47,099 bases of DNA from Candidatus Bipolaricaulota bacterium (GTDB lineage Bacteria > Bipolaricaulota > Bipolaricaulia > Bipolaricaulales > Bipolaricaulaceae): assembly GCA_938083225.1 (NCBI GenBank), contig CALKCH010000027.1, forward strand, positions 1 through 47,099. Reading direction: 5' to 3'. The notes below the pieces were generated by a model. It made no database searches and was not told the origin of the DNA. It worked only from the letters and a program-made list of their open reading frames with translations. A program made the translations under genes and the position numbers. Positions within the stretch are counted from its first letter, which is position 1; each line of letters opens with the position of its first letter. Positions 32,804 to 47,099 of this stretch are shown here, piece after piece.

Positions 32804-33400
32804 ATGAAAAGATGGGCGACGCTGGTGTTGGGCGCGACGCTGTTATTGGGTGTGAGCACCCTGGGCACGTTCGCGGCGGAGCAGTGGTGTGCACCCTGCG
32901 CCGAGACTACTCCTGAACCTTCCTGCTTCACGGCGTTTTGGCAGGGGGAAGACGTGTGTTTTGAGTTGGTGGTGCCTTGGAGTTGGTTCTCTTGTTGGTG
33001 CCCTACCACTCCCAAGGTTCAAGTGGCAGGCTGGCGCGTGGTTACCTTAGACGGCAACACCGTGTACCAAGAGGTCTTTCCTAGCCCGATAGTACCAGGG
33101 AAATGGGTGTGGAAGCAGGTAGATGCCTCAGGCAACCCCGTGGCCCCGGGGTACTACAAAATTGTTGTCTCCACCAGCGCGGGCGAGTACGAAAACACCG
33201 TAAAAATTGTGGCCAAACCCAATTGTTGTGGGCCGTGCTTTTTCCCGTTTGTCTTCTTCGGCTGCTTTGGGACTTACTCTAAGCCCTGCCCAGTTTCCTG
33301 GTGTTCTCCCTACGTCAAGCTCTATCGTTGCCCGACTTGTGTGACCCCGTGCCCAGCCTCGTGTGGAATTACGATCTTTTTGGGAACTAAAGACCCATAA
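32804..33400 (+). CDS. Cysteine-rich secreted protein of unknown function
   Basis: Signal peptide MKRWATLVLGATLLLGVSTLGTFAA; 16 Cys in the mature region (QWCAPCAETTPEPSC... PNCCGPCFFPFVFFGCFGTYSKPCPVSWCSPYVKLYRCPTCVTPCPASCG); SD gaggagg upstream. Confidence 0.8.
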   Translation: MKRWATLVLGATLLLGVSTLGTFAAEQWCAPCAETTPEPSCFTAFWQGEDVCFELVVPWSWFSCWCPTTPKVQVAGWRVVTLDGNTVYQEVFPSPIVPGKWVWKQVDASGNPVAPGYYKIVVSTSAGEYENTVKIVAKPNCCGPCFFPFVFFGCFGTYSKPCPVSWCSPYVKLYRCPTCVTPCPASCGITIFLGTKDP

Positions 33401-40472: not shown

Positions 40473-41393
40473 ATGAAACGGGATCTCGTGAGCTTCGTGG
40501 ACTGGTCTGCAGAGGAGATCTGGGAAGTCTTGGAACTGGGCCTACACCTGAAGCGCGAGCAGCGCGCCGGCATTCGCCACGATCACATCTTGCGTGGGAA
40601 AACCCTGGCCATGGTCTTCCAGAAGCCTTCCCTGCGCACCCGTGTGTCCTTCGAGGTGGGAATGTGGCAATTGGGCGGCTGTGCCCTGTACCTCGGTCCG
40701 GAGGACATCAAGCTCGGCCAGCGGGAAACCGTGGAGGATGTGGCCTTGAACCTCTCCCGCTACGTGGACGGAATCATGGCCCGCGTGTTCGGCCACGAGA
40801 TCGTGGAAGAATTGGCCCGTTTCGCCACCGTGCCCGTGGTCAACGGCCTTTCTGACCTTTTGCACCCTTGCCAGGTCCTGGCGGATATGCTCACCATTTG
40901 GGAGAAAAAGCGGAGGCTTTCCGGGCTGACCCTGAGCTTCATCGGGGACGGCAACAACGTGGCCAACTCCCTCATCGAAGCCTCGGCAAAACTGAGGATC
41001 CATTTTCGCATTGCCTGCCCTGAGGGGCACGAGCCCAGCGCCCGCATCGTGGCCGAGGCCCGCGCCCTCGGCGCAGAAATTGAGATTCTGCGCGACCCGA
41101 AACAGGCAGCCCAGGATGCGGATGTTCTGTACACCGACGTGTGGACGAGCATGGGCCAAGAAGCCGAGGCTGAAATTCGCCGCCAGAAATTCCGGGGCTA
41201 CACCGTGGATCTGGACCTTCTCTCCCTGGCAAAACCCGAGGCCCTGGTCATGCATTGTTTGCCTGCCCACTACGGAGAGGAGATCACCTATGAGGCCGCG
41301 CGCAGCAAGAACTCCGTGATTTTTGACCAAGCCGAGAACCGTCTGCACGCGCAAAAGGCTGTGCTGGCCCTCCTTTTGGGCGGGAAGGTCTAG
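40473..41393 (+). CDS. argF: Ornithine carbamoyltransferase
   Basis: MVFQKPSLRTRVSFEVGMWQLGG...RVFGHEIVEELARFATVPVVNGLSDLLHPCQVLADMLTI...MHCLPAHYGEEIT. Confidence 0.94.
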   Translation: MKRDLVSFVDWSAEEIWEVLELGLHLKREQRAGIRHDHILRGKTLAMVFQKPSLRTRVSFEVGMWQLGGCALYLGPEDIKLGQRETVEDVALNLSRYVDGIMARVFGHEIVEELARFATVPVVNGLSDLLHPCQVLADMLTIWEKKRRLSGLTLSFIGDGNNVANSLIEASAKLRIHFRIACPEGHEPSARIVAEARALGAEIEILRDPKQAAQDADVLYTDVWTSMGQEAEAEIRRQKFRGYTVDLDLLSLAKPEALVMHCLPAHYGEEITYEAARSKNSVIFDQAENRLHAQKAVLALLLGGKV

Positions 41394-44245
41394 GGGCGCA
41401 CCTCCACAAGATACTGGGTTTCACCGGTGAGGCCCGCGGAATCCGTGACCTGAAGGGTCACCAAGTAGAACCCGGGGGCGGGAAAGGTCCAGGTGACCCG
41501 TGCTCCTTCGGCGTCTGGGCGCCCGTCGCCATCAAAGTCCCAAGCGTAGCCCACGATTTCACCGTCGAATGCCTGGGAGAAGGTCCCGTCGAACAACACA
41601 GAGGCGCCAGCTCGGGGGATGCTGGGCGTCCATACGAACTCGGCCAAGGGCGGCTGGATCATGATCAGCGGGCGCGGCCGCTCCCGCACCCCGAAACTGA
41701 CCGTGATTTTCTGACCCGGACGAAGAGCGAGATCCAGGGCCTGAGGAGTGGTCAGCTCGTGTCGGGGAGGAAGCAATTCGGGTAGAAGCTCCACCCTGTA
41801 CGCTCCAGGAAAGAGCTCCGTCCACCCAAAACGTCCCGCAACATCGGAGAGGAGTTCCAGGCTCAGACCGGGCGAAACGACACGCACCAAAACTCGAGCC
41901 AAGCCTGGCTCGCCTGGGTCTCTCTTTCCATCTCCGTCGGCATCGAGAAACACTTCGCCCTCAAGTTCTGCCCAAGGCAAAACCCCAAGGGAAATGCGGG
42001 TTTCCTCGGCTAAAGCGACCGTCACCGGGAATTCTCGTGTGGGCGCACCGTACCCCTGGGGTAAGCTCGTGATGGCCAGTGTGTATGAGCCAGGTGGCAA
42101 GCCCGGAAACCGGAATTCTCCGGTTTTCCCGGTGGAGACCTGGTGAGTTTCCACGGAGAGGACCGCACCAGGTACACCGGGCTCGCCAGGATCCCGACGG
42201 CCATTTCCGTTCAAATCGGCAAACACTACTCCGGTGAGCATCCCGTAGATGGGCAGGAAAGGCGGGGCCCAGGAGAACGTGTAAGAGAAGCCAAAATTCA
42301 CACGCAACCTCGTGGGTTGCCCTTCCCCTTGCCAACGAGCTTCTGCGCCGAACTTGAGCACGAGAGGCGGCCCGGGAACGACGGAGATCTCCGCTTGGAC
42401 CACTCCCCCTGTGGGGCTGTGCTCCGCCCGGATAAAAAGTTTCTCCTGCACGGAAAAGGAAATGGTGGTATGAGCCTCCGTGCGTTCCTCTCCGGGGGCA
42501 AAGAAAAGCACCTGGCGGAGCTCTCCTGCCAAAGATACTCCTGGCGCGGCCTGAATGTTCAGCCATTCCTGGTACTCCTGGCGGACCCAGGTTTGACGGG
42601 AGAGGACGTCCTCGGTGCGGGTGTACATGCCTTTGGCCCCCAGAGTGAATCCGGCCTGGGAGAACGCGAGGCCTGCCTCGGCGGAAAGCGTGCGTTCCCC
42701 CGAAGTTGGGGGCCAGGAAATGTCCGCGACGCGGCGCAGGCCTAAACCAAAAGAGAAACTCCAGGCCCATGCAGGGGGCGAGAGGTTCCAGCTCACTTGC
42801 ACGCTTTGGGTTCCCCGGGTGAGAGGCGAGAGAGCCCGCAGGTTATCGCGCTCCCAGCTCAAGGTGAAGCGTAGTCCAGCCTCGGGGGCTCCCAGCCTCC
42901 CCGACAGAAGGGTTCCGGCCCGGTCCTGAACTAGCCCAGGAAATGCGGGATCGCTGGCATAACCCCGAGCTTCCAGAAAGAAAAGCTCCGGAACTTCCCA
43001 GGTCAAGGCCGTTTCCCCGGCAAACCGAGTGAGCCCCTGAACCAGGGCAGCTCCTGCGGCGAAGCGGAACCATAGATCCTCCAGGGCCTGCAAGGCCAGC
43101 CAAAGAGCTCCTCCACGGCTGTGCGTAGCCGAAGCCCTTTCCTCACGATAAGCCCAGCCCAGTTCGCCCCAGGCCGGCTGAAAGACCAAGGTTCCTGCGG
43201 CGCGGCCCGTTTCCTCTAGCCAGCCGGAGCCAAAATCTAGACGCGCACTGGGCAGGGAAACGTTTGCCTCTAACCCCCAGAAACTCAGAGGGGAGAAAAG
43301 TTCTCCGAAGGAAAAGCTCGTGCGACCGGCCGTAACCCCCCAATCCTCCCGAAGGTAGAGGGCCTGGAAATCCAGGAGGGCCAGGGGCTGAGAGGCCCAG
43401 GGCCCAGTCCACCGTCCTGAAAGCTCGAGGGCGCCGGAGAAGGCTGTGCCGCGGCCAGAAAAGCCCAGGACAGAGGTACCGCTTTCGGACAAAAAATCAT
43501 AAGAAAAGCGAGCGAAGCCTTGCGTGGCGAGCTCGGCCAAGGTCCGCACAGAAACTCGTTCGGGTCCAGGAGGAAGGACCTCCACGTACCAGGCGGAACG
43601 GACCTCCACTTCGGGAGCGGTCTCGGAGCGAGCCTGGGCCAGGACCACCTCCCGACCCACCCCTGCGGCCTCCGGGATCCACACGATCACCCGGACCTCG
43701 CCCCGCTCGCCGGGCGAAAGGGAAAGCGCGCTCGGCCGCACCGCCACCCGCCAACCGGAGGCGGTGCGCACGGAAACCGCCACCCGGTCCACCGCATTCC
43801 CCCGGTTCACCACCTGCACGGAAAACTCCAGGGCCTCGCCAGGCTGGCCGGCCTGAGGGGAAGGGGGGAAGAGCGCCAGGGCGGCCACGGCCTCCACCTC
43901 GATCTGCGCCTCGGATCCGACCTCTTGCCCATCCCAGCGGAGGCGCAGGCGCACCGGGTACGTCCCCCTTTGCGCCGTGCGGGGCACATGCAGGGCGCAA
44001 AAGAGGTACTCCTCCTCGCCCGGGCCGAGGACCAGGGTCGACGGAACCCCCAGGGCCTCCCAGCCTGCGGGGACCTCAAGTTCGAGGCTCACGGTGAGGG
44101 AGTTCGGCGAGAGGTTGGTGACCTGCCACACCTGCACGGCGAAGTCGCCGGGCCGGACGGTGGCGGGCGGGGAAAGGCGCCGGACCTGAAGGTCCTGGCC
44201 CAGGGCCAAAGCCCCGCATAGAGCGAGGAGGAAAAGCGCTCGCAT
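41390..44245 (-). CDS. Large secreted beta-barrel protein with N-terminal Ig-like (NEW3-like), two CnaB/SdrD-like and one C-terminal PKD domain; candidate usher-like translocon
   Basis: Signal peptide MRALFLLALCGALALG; LEVPAGWEALGVPSTLVLGPGEEEYLFCALHVPRTAQRGTYPVRLRL; long alternating-hydrophobicity barrel region; GVVFADLNGNGRRDPGEPGVPGAVLSVE and GEVFLDADGDGKRDPGEPGLARVLVRV; VGYAWDFDGDGRPDAEGARVTWTFPAPGFYLVTLQVTDSAG. Confidence 0.75.
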   Translation of the reverse strand: MRALFLLALCGALALGQDLQVRRLSPPATVRPGDFAVQVWQVTNLSPNSLTVSLELEVPAGWEALGVPSTLVLGPGEEEYLFCALHVPRTAQRGTYPVRLRLRWDGQEVGSEAQIEVEAVAALALFPPSPQAGQPGEALEFSVQVVNRGNAVDRVAVSVRTASGWRVAVRPSALSLSPGERGEVRVIVWIPEAAGVGREVVLAQARSETAPEVEVRSAWYVEVLPPGPERVSVRTLAELATQGFARFSYDFLSESGTSVLGFSGRGTAFSGALELSGRWTGPWASQPLALLDFQALYLREDWGVTAGRTSFSFGELFSPLSFWGLEANVSLPSARLDFGSGWLEETGRAAGTLVFQPAWGELGWAYREERASATHSRGGALWLALQALEDLWFRFAAGAALVQGLTRFAGETALTWEVPELFFLEARGYASDPAFPGLVQDRAGTLLSGRLGAPEAGLRFTLSWERDNLRALSPLTRGTQSVQVSWNLSPPAWAWSFSFGLGLRRVADISWPPTSGERTLSAEAGLAFSQAGFTLGAKGMYTRTEDVLSRQTWVRQEYQEWLNIQAAPGVSLAGELRQVLFFAPGEERTEAHTTISFSVQEKLFIRAEHSPTGGVVQAEISVVPGPPLVLKFGAEARWQGEGQPTRLRVNFGFSYTFSWAPPFLPIYGMLTGVVFADLNGNGRRDPGEPGVPGAVLSVETHQVSTGKTGEFRFPGLPPGSYTLAITSLPQGYGAPTREFPVTVALAEETRISLGVLPWAELEGEVFLDADGDGKRDPGEPGLARVLVRVVSPGLSLELLSDVAGRFGWTELFPGAYRVELLPELLPPRHELTTPQALDLALRPGQKITVSFGVRERPRPLIMIQPPLAEFVWTPSIPRAGASVLFDGTFSQAFDGEIVGYAWDFDGDGRPDAEGARVTWTFPAPGFYLVTLQVTDSAGLTGETQYLVEVRP

Positions 44246-44358
44246 CCCCCAGGATTGTGGGGCCAAGGGGCCCATGTTTCGGGGAGAAATGTCTGCGGTG
44301 CTCGGGAAGTTCGGCCCCGCTCCTGCAGCCTGCGCAGGCGAAGGACGGGGAACGCAAA

Positions 44359-45357
44359 CTATGGGGACAGCCGCTGGCGCAGAACCTCGAGGTCCTGCTC
44401 GTCCAGGACGCCGTCGTTGTTGAAGTCGAAGGCCCGGAGGTTGGCGCGCACGACGGGGTTCGTGAGGTTCTGAGCGAGGAGATCGATGTCGGAAAGATCA
44501 AAAACGCCGTCGCCGTTCACGTCGTCAAAAAATCCGTCGCCGTCCAGATCCTGGGGGGTTCCCAGCCCCTCCGCGAGGGGCAAAAGGTTAAGGGGGCGGA
44601 CCACCAGGCGCACCACGGCCGCAAGGAGGCTTTCCCCGCCGTAGTCCACGGTGGCCAGGACCTGGTAGACCCCGGGCGCAGGGCGAAAGTCCGTGTCCAC
44701 ACGGATCCAGCGCTCCGCGCCGGGAAGGCAGGGCACGGCGGGCGCGCGGGCCTCGGCCACGGTCCGACCCTGCACGTCCACCACCCGCAGGCTCGCCTTG
44801 ACCTCCCGCAGGTTTGCGCTGCCGGCGTTGGCGAACTTCACCCAGGCCCAAAGGGGGTTGAGGCCGCGGATCTCCAGGCCCCTCAGCTCGGCGCGAACCT
44901 CAGCCGGCTCCACCGTGACGTAGATCTTGATGCCGATGCGGCGGGTCACGGTGACCAGGACCCCTTGATAGGGCACAAGGCGGGGCTCCCCCTGCACGAA
45001 CACGATCGCCCAGGAGGTGCCGCGGGGAGCATCAGGGGGAACCTGCACGAGGCCCTGGATCTCCCGCACCTCGCCGGGGCCGAGCACAAGGGAGGTGGGA
45101 GCCACCCGGATCCAGCCGGCCGCGGAGCGCGCCAGCGTCCCCGGCTCATAGAACCGGTTCTCCCCGAAGGGGTCGCGGTCCCAGTCGCCGAGGTACAGGA
45201 CGATCTGCTCCGGCTGGGCGAGCTCGTTGCGCACCAGGAACGAGAAGGGAAGGACGGCGCCCGGCCGGGCCGCGAGGTCCACCTCCAGGAGGTTCACCTC
45301 GAACGCAAGGCCAAGAAAGCTCACCAGACACAGACCGAGGAGGAACATGCGCTGCAT
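44359..45357 (-). CDS. Secreted PapD-like/Ig-fold protein with C-terminal dockerin-type Ca2+ module
   Basis: Signal peptide MQRMFLLGLCLVSFLGLA; GWIRVAPTSLVLGPGEVREIQGLVQVPPDAPRGTSWAIVFVQGEP; DVNGDGVFDLSDIDLL and DFNNDGVLDEQDLEVL. Confidence 0.7.
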   Translation of the reverse strand: MQRMFLLGLCLVSFLGLAFEVNLLEVDLAARPGAVLPFSFLVRNELAQPEQIVLYLGDWDRDPFGENRFYEPGTLARSAAGWIRVAPTSLVLGPGEVREIQGLVQVPPDAPRGTSWAIVFVQGEPRLVPYQGVLVTVTRRIGIKIYVTVEPAEVRAELRGLEIRGLNPLWAWVKFANAGSANLREVKASLRVVDVQGRTVAEARAPAVPCLPGAERWIRVDTDFRPAPGVYQVLATVDYGGESLLAAVVRLVVRPLNLLPLAEGLGTPQDLDGDGFFDDVNGDGVFDLSDIDLLAQNLTNPVVRANLRAFDFNNDGVLDEQDLEVLRQRLSP

Positions 45358-45399
45358 ACGTAAGTCAATGTTCGGAGAGGAAAGGCCCGTCCACAAGGA

Positions 45400-46308
45400 C
45401 TAGGGGCTCGTAAGGGTGTAGCGGAAGTCCAGGGCGTAGGTGCCGGGCCAGGTGGTGTCGTAGTCCACAAGGAGGCGGAAGCTCAGGCTGAGTTTGGCCA
45501 CGCCGGCGGAGCCCCGGGCTACCTGACGCTCGAAGGTGGAAAGAGGGGTGAAGGTCTTCTCCACCGTGCTCACCGGGCCGTCGGCGGACTCCACCCGCCA
45601 AAGGAGGTGTTCACAGGGTTTCTTCGGGTCGGGAAGGTCGCCGGTGTAGCGCCAAGTGGCAGTCAGGGCGGCCACGGAGAGGGTCCAGGCGGTGGCGCTG
45701 CTCAGGCGCACGGTTTGGGCACTCAGGCGCTCCACATAGCCCCGGTCGTAGTCGGCCAAGGAGAGCGTCCCCAGGTCCACGGTGGAAGGAGCGAGCTCCA
45801 GGGACAGGCCCGTGCTGTAGTAAACGCGCACGGCCACCCAATCCAGGCGGATTCTATGAACAGCTCCACATTGGGCTCTCAAGCGCACGCGGAAAAGCCC
45901 AGTCCCAAACTCTGACGAATTCCAACTACGGCCCCATTCGTCCGTGGGGCCCCCCAAGATGTACGTGGCTTCGGTGGTTTGCAAGGCTCCCGTGCGGTAG
46001 CCTGTGGTCGTCCAGGAGTTTCCTCCATCCCAGGAAAGCTCGGCGTACAGGTAGGCAGCAGGTCCACCGGTTTTCCAAGCATCAAGGCGAAGTTCGATAC
46101 CCAGGATGATACTTCCCGCAGGGATAAACACAGCGTAACTCCAGTAGTCATGCACTTGGCCATTTCGGGCCTCGGCGAAAAGATTGTCATCATAATAAGC
46201 GCGGAACCCGTTCACAAAGGCCCCTGCATCGGCCGAAGGATCCAGCCAGCCGGTGTCCTGGGCCCAAAGGGGCAGGGCGAGAAGGATCAGTACCAAGAAG
46301 GCCAACAT
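45400..46308 (-). CDS. Secreted two-domain protein: N-terminal beta-sandwich-like domain plus C-terminal domain homologous to the 46383-46898 subunit
   Basis: Signal peptide MLAFLVLILLALPLWAQ; C-terminal STVDLGTLSLADYDRGYVERLSAQTVRLSSATAWTLSVAALTATW...LLVDYDTTWPGTYALDFRYTLTSP. Confidence 0.7.
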   Translation of the reverse strand: MLAFLVLILLALPLWAQDTGWLDPSADAGAFVNGFRAYYDDNLFAEARNGQVHDYWSYAVFIPAGSIILGIELRLDAWKTGGPAAYLYAELSWDGGNSWTTTGYRTGALQTTEATYILGGPTDEWGRSWNSSEFGTGLFRVRLRAQCGAVHRIRLDWVAVRVYYSTGLSLELAPSTVDLGTLSLADYDRGYVERLSAQTVRLSSATAWTLSVAALTATWRYTGDLPDPKKPCEHLLWRVESADGPVSTVEKTFTPLSTFERQVARGSAGVAKLSLSFRLLVDYDTTWPGTYALDFRYTLTSP

Positions 46309-46334
46309 GTTCCGCTCCACAAAAGGAAATGTTA

Positions 46335-46369
46335 GGGCAGCCCGGTTCTTTAGGGGAACCGGGCTGCCC
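46335..46369 (-). terminator. Perfect 14-bp intercistronic hairpin (partial terminator / mRNA stabiliser candidate)
   Basis: GGGCAGCCCGGTTC (46335-46348), 7-nt loop, GAACCGGGCTGCCC (46356-46369), between the two pilin-like genes. Confidence 0.6.
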
Positions 46370-46382
46370 GGACCATGCTGGG

Positions 46383-46898
46383 TCACGGCGCGGTGAGGGT
46401 GTAGGTGAAGCTGAGCGAGTAGTTGCCGGCCACGTCGTTGTCCCAGCTCACCAGGACCCGGAAGTCCATGGTGTGCTGGAAGTTCCCGCCGGGCTGGCCC
46501 TGGGCGACCGTGAACCCGGCCGTGGTCAAACCCGTCAGGGTCGAAAGCAGGTAGGTGATGCGCTCCGGCCGGTTCACGGCGGCCACGCGCAGCTCGAGAT
46601 CGCTTGCCGGCTTGGCCCATGGGCCAGTCCAGGTGGCGCTATCCGCGGCCACGGACAGGACCCAAGGCCGGTTGCTCCACACGTACACGATCTGCGCTTC
46701 CAAGGCGTCCTTGTACCCCAGGTCGTAGTCCGCGAGGGTGAGTGTGCCGAAGTTGATGGTGTTCACATCCAAGGAAAGCCGAATCAAGGTCGGCACCGTG
46801 AACACCGCCGTAGAGTTCGCCGTCACGCTCTGCGCCATCCCGCTCACCACGCCCAACGCTCCAGCCACCAAAACCGCCAAAACCTTCAAGCTCTTCAT
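46383..46898 (-). CDS. Small secreted beta-rich subunit, SCPU/pilin-like
   Basis: Signal peptide MKSLKVLAVLVAGALGVVSGMAQ; TAVFTVPTLIRLSLDVNTINFGTLTLADYDLGYKDALEAQIVYVWSNRPWVLSVAADSATW...FRVLVSWDNDVAGNYSLSFTYTLTAP. Confidence 0.7.
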   Translation of the reverse strand: MKSLKVLAVLVAGALGVVSGMAQSVTANSTAVFTVPTLIRLSLDVNTINFGTLTLADYDLGYKDALEAQIVYVWSNRPWVLSVAADSATWTGPWAKPASDLELRVAAVNRPERITYLLSTLTGLTTAGFTVAQGQPGGNFQHTMDFRVLVSWDNDVAGNYSLSFTYTLTAP

Positions 46899-46902
46899 TT
46901 GT

Positions 46903-46973
46903 GCACCTCCAAGAGAAGTTTTTCTTTACCGGGCCTCCTACCCGGGAGTTTTTTTGAACTTCTCTTGGGGTGC
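46903..46973 (-). promoter_or_regulatory. SD-sequestering hairpin (riboswitch expression platform)
   Basis: On the minus strand GCACC-CCAAGAGAAGTT (46973-46957) pairs with AACTTCTCTTGG-A-GGTGC (46920-46903); the SD GGAGGTG (46910-46904) lies within the 3' arm, 5 nt before ATG 46898. Confidence 0.8.
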
Positions 46974-46974
46974 T

Positions 46975-47044
46975 TCGGCAGCCCAGCCGTCCCTGAGGGA
47001 CCTGTGGCTTTGCGCCCCCGGATTGCTCCGGGTTTGCCTTTATC
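46975..47044 (-). ncRNA. GEMM-I (cyclic-di-GMP-I class) riboswitch aptamer
   Basis: Minus strand GATAAAGGCAAACCCGGAGCAATCCGGGGGCGCAAAGCCACAGGTCCCTCAGGGACGGCTGGGCTGCCGA: GGCAAACC, GNRA (GCAA)-capped P2, GCAAAGCC, P3 AGCC-A-CAG/CTG-GGCT, terminal TGCCGA. Confidence 0.88.
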
Positions 47045-47099
47045 GGTCACCCCGCAACTGCGCTTCCCTTTCGGCTCCCACCTCCCTTCAGCCCTGCGG

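Follow-up and report, generated by a model that had tools for sequence, protein, structure and literature searches.

The window analysed here, the 47,099 nucleotides of contig CALKCH010000027.1 in a Bipolaricaulota metagenome-assembled genome (MAG; 0.92 Mb, 87% complete), ends in a minus-strand operon in which a cyclic di-GMP (c-di-GMP) riboswitch of the c-di-GMP-I-GGC class is followed by four genes, P1, P2, P3 and P4, each encoding a protein with an N-terminal signal peptide in its open reading frame translation. An earlier reading of the DNA made from its letters alone (the sequence-only reading) had placed all four frames and their signal peptides correctly, had called a c-di-GMP-class riboswitch ahead of them, now identified as RF03167, and had proposed that they form an archaic chaperone-usher-like fibre operon. 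Our analysis indicates that the operon probably directs the building of a surface fibre by donor-strand complementation, under c-di-GMP control, in a bacterium with two membranes, and that the system is best described as one of donor-strand fibre assembly, with a chaperone of WxLIP type and an usher-like barrel of 26 strands. The operon contains the following features:

46973-47047, minus strand: c-di-GMP-I-GGC aptamer, RF03167 (cmscan 72.2 bits against a gathering score of 59, E = 2.8e-15)
46383-46898, minus strand: P1, small pilin-like subunit of 171 amino acids
45400-46308, minus strand: P2, two-domain subunit of 302 amino acids, candidate tip adhesin
44359-45357, minus strand: P3, WxLIP-like periplasmic protein with two immunoglobulin-like (Ig) domains and a dockerin, candidate chaperone
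41390-44245, minus strand: P4, outer-membrane barrel protein of 951 amino acids, candidate assembly and secretion platform

The contig end cuts the operon at its 5′ side, just upstream of the riboswitch. Upstream of P1, relatives carry P0, an extra gene for a small subunit that is preceded by a riboswitch of its own, indicating that the window operon lacks its 5′ part. The parts list drawn up in the sequence-only reading consisted of real genes and missed this truncation, the P3 dockerin and the kinship of P3 with WxLIP.

By sequence, P3 is a relative of WxLIP (DUF916/DUF3324) and not of PapD. The Pfam profile PF06030 (WxLIP, DUF916) matched 12 of 30 P3 family members (best E = 2.1e-6) and gave no match to the P3 of the window itself, and the P3 family profile found the solved EfmWxLIP1 in the PDB across both of its Ig domains (E = 1e-4). 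Alignment of profiles with hhalign gave 97.2% (E = 3.6e-11, 218 columns) against WxLIP sequences from Lactococcus, Lactiplantibacillus, Latilactobacillus and Enterococcus, and 97% (E = 1.9e-10, score 78 versus a shuffled maximum of 18.9) against a set of 13 that adds Listeria innocua and Vagococcus. Membership of the PapD family was rejected, as hhalign against nine K-12 chaperones yielded 0.83% and a score of 19.2, with a shuffled maximum of 18.5. What had been described as a PapD-like Ig protein does have the two-Ig, chaperone-like architecture, and its family by sequence is WxLIP instead. Two further elements were located within P3:

44926-44964, minus strand: strand G(V/T)xVxVxRR(I/F)G(I/V)K, candidate for the donated strand; aligns with the inter-Ig region of WxLIP
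44368-44523, minus strand: C-terminal dockerin-type EF-hand pair (PF00404, E = 7e-8)

Residues G133, V136, V138, R141 and K145 of P3 are invariant in 14 sequences, and the stretch that holds them, aligned in the EfmWxLIP1 comparison with the region between the two WxLIP Ig domains, ranks with the best-conserved parts of P3. AlphaFold2 (AF2) predictions in published work on WxLIP have one of its hairpins slot into a gap in WxL, where it runs parallel to a WxL strand, so completing the WxL sandwich (PMC10599100); in pili the chaperone strand likewise runs parallel to strand F (PMC3960871), such that the predicted WxLIP-WxL geometry is that of chaperone-pilin complexes. Unlike WxLIP, P3 has no C-terminal hydrophobic membrane helix in its sequence and ends in the dockerin instead.

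Several observations concern the wider distribution of such proteins. The dockerin-type EF-hand pair was present in 19 of the 30 P3 family members. PF06030 also matched in the control genomes of Thermotoga maritima and Methanosarcina acetivorans, and WxLIP-like proteins may extend beyond Bacilli and Bipolaricaulota. A 73% match to an Enterococcus WxLIP lies at 101803-102474 of CP069367.1, a record named as a Klebsiella pneumoniae plasmid that is probably mislabelled or a mixed assembly. Elsewhere in the window, a 198-amino-acid frame at 32804-33400 (plus strand) gave a weak match to the P3 profile (E = 6e-6) and matched no Pfam family.

The subunit genes encode proteins with the following elements:

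46776-46835, minus strand: N-terminal extension of P1 with alternating hydrophobics, candidate donor strand (from 23 P1-type subunits)
46386-46427, minus strand: C-terminal 14 residues of P1, GNYSLSFTYTLTAP, terminal strand (from the C-terminal motif survey)
45811-46257, minus strand: N-terminal jelly-roll of P2, similar to carbohydrate-binding modules (CBMs; matches to CBM22, CBM4, CBM16 and CBM6)
45403-45810, minus strand: C-terminal pilin domain of P2, homologue of P1 without the N-terminal extension

P1 is homologous to the C-terminal half of P2 (E = 6.7e-21, 44% identity), bearing out the shared domain that had been noticed in the first two proteins. A final aromatic-T-aliphatic motif was found in 76 of 94 distinct subunit C-termini, its aromatic residue (Tyr) lying exactly 6 from the C-terminal end in 74 of the 76, and glycine occupied position -14 in 65 of the 94, as it also does in most of 20 E. 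coli K-12 chaperone-usher subunits compared. The subunits stop 2 residues past the last predicted strand, and chaperone-usher pilins, too, finish with their C-terminal strand. Over 13 columns within the ~20 N-terminal residues of P1-type subunits hydrophobic residues favour alternate columns (n = 23), and this alternating stretch was absent from the pilin domain in all ten of the P2 proteins compared (10/10). Donor strands are present in pilins and absent from tip adhesins (PMC3960871). Taken together, these are signs that P1 and P2 carry the hallmarks of an incomplete pilin fold completed by a donor strand, and to this extent they support the earlier suggestion of an incomplete fold with an N-terminal donor strand in the product of the gene at 46383.

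The AF2 model of P2 (predicted local distance difference test score, pLDDT, 94.7) consists of an N-terminal jelly-roll and a C-terminal beta-sandwich. Foldseek searches of the PDB returned TLP-1 (TLP-1a) as the top match (3.8e-6), with PapG (6e-6), FimH (2.2e-4) and CsuE (5.4e-4) also high, and the N-domain matched the CBMs listed above; the TM-scores were low, so that these matches favour a two-domain architecture more than they prove homology. In architecture, P2 resembles a two-domain tip adhesin with a C-terminal pilin domain. In a Pfam profile search the subunits matched none of the pilin, SCPU and WxL families, and PF13731 (WxL) had no match among 35 of them. The first W-x-L motif is present, and the second is Y-x-L. 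We do not claim P1 as a member of the WxL family, since hhalign gave 74% with 9 WxL sequences and 1-18% with larger or split sets.

The product of the last gene, P4, is divided into three parts:

43577-44191, minus strand: two N-terminal NEW3/WxLIP-like Ig domains, residues 19-223 (PF10633)
42269-43531, minus strand: 26-stranded beta-barrel, residues 239-659 (DSSP of the AF2 model)
41393-42246, minus strand: C-terminal pair of SdrD_B domains and a PKD domain (PF17210, PF13620, PF18911)

The barrel was modelled with high confidence (pLDDT 90.1, 27 sequences), and the AF2 model fits a large barrel in the outer membrane flanked by N- and C-terminal domains in the periplasm, in keeping with an even strand number, which places both barrel ends on one side. 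When P4 was compared with 350,542 PDB chains using Foldseek, FimD ushers occupied ranks 1-7 (1.6e-16 to 1.2e-12), with PapC further down. The small porin that the sequence-only reading had named as a possible contrary outcome did not appear, and the SdrD and PKD domains that it had reported were recovered as SdrD_B, CarboxypepD_reg, NEW3 and PKD. The N-terminal domain of P4 aligned with WxLIP (hhalign 52%, E = 1.4e-4). Two relationships to ushers by sequence were rejected: the barrel gave 0.25% with hhalign, near shuffled controls, and the C-terminus aligned collinearly with the usher C-terminus at E = 0.06, scoring 23.5 versus a shuffled maximum of 25.1. The idea that P4 is an usher has the fold matches in its favour, and against it the missing plug, the absence of PF00577 and the strand number of 26 in place of 24.

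To assess how widely the set is kept, 100 genomes of the class were surveyed. Of these, 83 had P3, 89 had P4 and 34 had P1-type subunits. P4 lies downstream of P3 within 1.5 kb in 24 of 29 named loci, and subunit genes lie upstream within 3 kb in 21 of 26, so that the four genes are kept together across the class, as the sequence-only reading had required of a real system. P0-P1-P2-P3-P4 is the usual order within the family; in distant families the number of subunit genes varies and the P3-P4 pair is mostly kept. No other genes of the set are as well conserved or as closely linked as P3 and P4. Named relatives of P3 come nearly all from Bipolaricaulota (Acetothermia) MAGs, the rest being generically or doubtfully titled records; one further search match, from Rubrivivax, covers the dockerin part only. 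Omp85 was detected in 18 of 20 genomes tested, consistent with an outer membrane.

These components can be compared with two known systems. The WxL cluster of Bacilli encodes a small WxL protein, a large WxL protein with a C-terminal WxL domain and WxLIP (PMC10599100, PMC9772566). By sequence, the operon is such a Gram-positive cluster plus an outer-membrane barrel: a small one-domain subunit and a large subunit ending in the same domain adjoin a two-Ig WxLIP-like gene, P3 can be aligned over both Ig domains, and the subunits carry a W-x-L motif and, at the C-terminus, a strand of the aromatic-x-L type (AGDYSLGFTYTLTAP here, as against AGDFSTTLEWDLVTAP in Lactococcus). It differs from the WxL cluster in its diderm host, the barrel within the operon and its riboswitch control, and its subunits differ from WxL in the Y-x-L form of the second motif, the N-terminal donor-like strand and the lack of a PF13731 match. 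With chaperone-usher pili (type 1, P and archaic Csu) the operon shares a two-Ig periplasmic protein that resembles a chaperone, single-domain subunits that carry an N-terminal extension and a two-domain tip subunit that does not, subunits that end at the last strand, a large barrel flanked by beta domains, and a chaperone gene immediately preceding the barrel gene. Unlike those pili, it shows no detected sequence homology for chaperone, barrel or subunit, and unlike an usher P4 begins with NEW3/WxLIP-like Ig domains. In its working, the system would resemble a chaperone-usher pilus. The proposal of an archaic chaperone-usher-like fibre operon is well supported in function at the level of architecture, whereas its family label is not supported, given the absence of PF00577 and a plug and the WxLIP character of P3.

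Control of the operon was examined in the leader of the P1 gene, which contains the following elements in addition to the aptamer:

47048-47053, minus strand: GGGGTG, 5′ half of the extended P1 stem of the aptamer, pairing with 46967-46972
46967-46972, minus strand: CACCCC switching strand, whose partner is either 47048-47053 (aptamer P1 stem) or the ribosome binding site
46904-46910, minus strand: ribosome binding site GGAGGTG, masked by 46967-46972 when the leader folds freely
46957-46968 and 46909-46920, minus strand: arms of a 12-bp hairpin flanking the sequestration of the ribosome binding site

RNAfold gave the leader -88.8 kcal/mol when free and -79.6 kcal/mol with the aptamer P1 stem enforced. 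In the leaders of P1 genes the switch strands covary over four genera within the same three-strand arrangement (GGGGTG:CACCCC, GAGGTG:CACCTC, GAGGTG:CGCCTC and TTGGGG:CCCCAA), and on this model c-di-GMP is predicted to turn the P1 gene on. The P0 leaders of relatives carry a second c-di-GMP-I riboswitch (e.g. L136:4594-4690 and L137:7739-7830), whose extended stem covers or abuts the P0 start codon (CCTGACCATT:AATGGTCAGG in L136); because of this position, it is predicted to be an OFF switch, opposite to that of the P1 gene. The aptamer scores above the gathering threshold as in other c-di-GMP-I riboswitches (RF01051/RF03167), and differs from their usual deployment in its tandem use within one operon, one copy predicted to free a ribosome binding site and the other to hide a start codon. 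In one distant genome, three subunit genes each stand directly behind their own riboswitch. The source genome encodes one GGDEF protein.

The following mechanism can be proposed, in which we infer complex formation, polymerisation through P4, the tip position of P2 and the directions of the switches. The signal peptides seen in the sequences would bring all four proteins into the periplasm, where P3 may hold each pilin-like subunit, whose fold ends with the C-terminal strand, by lending it a strand of alternating hydrophobics. If the P4 barrel sits as in ushers, its N-terminal Ig domains and its C-terminal SdrD/PKD domains would both be periplasmic, and P4 could receive the P3-subunit complexes. 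The N-terminal strand of the next P1 would then replace the strand of P3, P1 would polymerise outwards, and P2, which lacks a donor strand and has a domain resembling carbohydrate-binding ones, would cap the tip as an adhesin. High c-di-GMP is predicted to stabilise the aptamer P1 stem, upon which the switching strand would leave the ribosome binding site and the operon would be turned on. We further suggest, tentatively and as somewhat short of an even chance, that WxL-like subunits are here assembled by a WxLIP-type chaperone together with a 26-stranded outer-membrane barrel that has no plug, and that this forms a fibre secretion system of the donor-strand kind, separate from chaperone-usher pili and of other descent.

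Several observations weigh against a donor-strand fibre. No plug domain is inserted in the P4 barrel (AF2/DSSP), which has 26 strands and not 24, and PF00577 was found in none of the 100 class genomes (0/100 at E = 0.01, with E. coli as a positive control). The Foldseek TM-scores of P4 are low (0.2-0.3 by query), and barrel-only FimD and PapC entries (2.8e-7 and 1e-6) match no better than LptD (1.7e-7), so that the link to ushers rests on the barrel plus its flanking domains. Profile homology between P1 and WxL is unstable, as described above, some genomes carry P3 and subunits without P4 alongside, and Omp85 was not detected in the source genome itself, which is incomplete. To our knowledge, no fibre has been seen in the phylum.

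Among the alternatives, the one that survives best, although we consider it unlikely, is a WxL surface complex of a diderm that does not polymerise: P3 would hold P1 and P2 as a short adhesin complex, and P4 would only anchor it to the outer membrane or tie the membrane to the wall. The kinship of P3 with WxLIP, a gene complement as in PMC10599100 and PMC9772566, and a P4 with PKD and Ig domains and no plug all fit such a complex, but the donor-like N-terminal strand of P1 is missing only in the tip-like P2, a 26-stranded barrel far exceeds the needs of an anchor, P3 has no membrane helix for anchoring, and the top structural match of P2 is the fibril-forming TLP-1. Decidedly more improbable is a highly divergent archaic chaperone-usher member in which P3 is a PapD homologue and P4 an usher minus its plug plus two strands. 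The FimD/PapC matches of P4, the tip-adhesin matches of P2 and the weak collinearity of the P4 C-terminus with that of ushers point towards it, and are countered by the scores of P3 against PapD and of P4 against ushers, which lie at or near those of shuffled controls, and by the absence of any usher family member from the class genomes.

TLP-1, reportedly an assembled environmental fibril, was also considered. It is the best structural match to P2 (PDB 9ikj, 9ikk) and the best PDB sequence-profile match of the subunits, in a weak collinear alignment that includes the N-terminal strand and an S-x-x-W-x-L motif; the match is not significant (E = 0.09-0.37), the TLP-1 subunit is larger, and kinship by sequence was rejected. 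Fibres of the TasA/TLP type, in which P1 self-assembles and the barrel belongs to an unrelated porin or receptor, are most improbable despite these matches, as P3 and P4 are the best-conserved and tightest-linked genes of the set and the fixed subunit C-terminus suggests anchoring by a chaperone.

For one closed genome from the phylum, an earlier analysis reported neither pili nor fimbriae nor adhesins, and it left undecided whether the phylum has one membrane or two (PMC6092417). The operon provides a concrete candidate for an appendage and an outer-membrane platform in the phylum, conserved across the class. It suggests that WxL-WxLIP binding in Gram-positive commensals and chaperone-pilin binding are one trick, arrived at by different proteins or by common inheritance, and a separate system, if true, would link Gram-positive WxL adhesins to outer-membrane fibre export. 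The opposed pair of riboswitches, if true, would select which subunit gets made, a choice by c-di-GMP that is testable in vitro without culturing the organism.

Finally, c-di-GMP-I riboswitches elsewhere in the class were surveyed. Of 40 other sites, seven lie ahead of subunit genes, and many of the rest stand directly before genes for secreted proteins whose C-terminal motifs resemble those of subtilases (GAGLVDAG; loci L196-L198, L200-L203, L205, L209, L210, L216, L217, L222 and L224). These numbers indicate a wider regulon and rule out the riboswitch as a marker of the fibre system only; secreted proteases may belong to the same c-di-GMP regulon as the fibre subunits. The only other c-di-GMP-I riboswitch found in the source genome (contig C4, 1719-1793; L207) lies before a 554-amino-acid frame, a relative of which (L208) has repeat-like surface-protein sequence.

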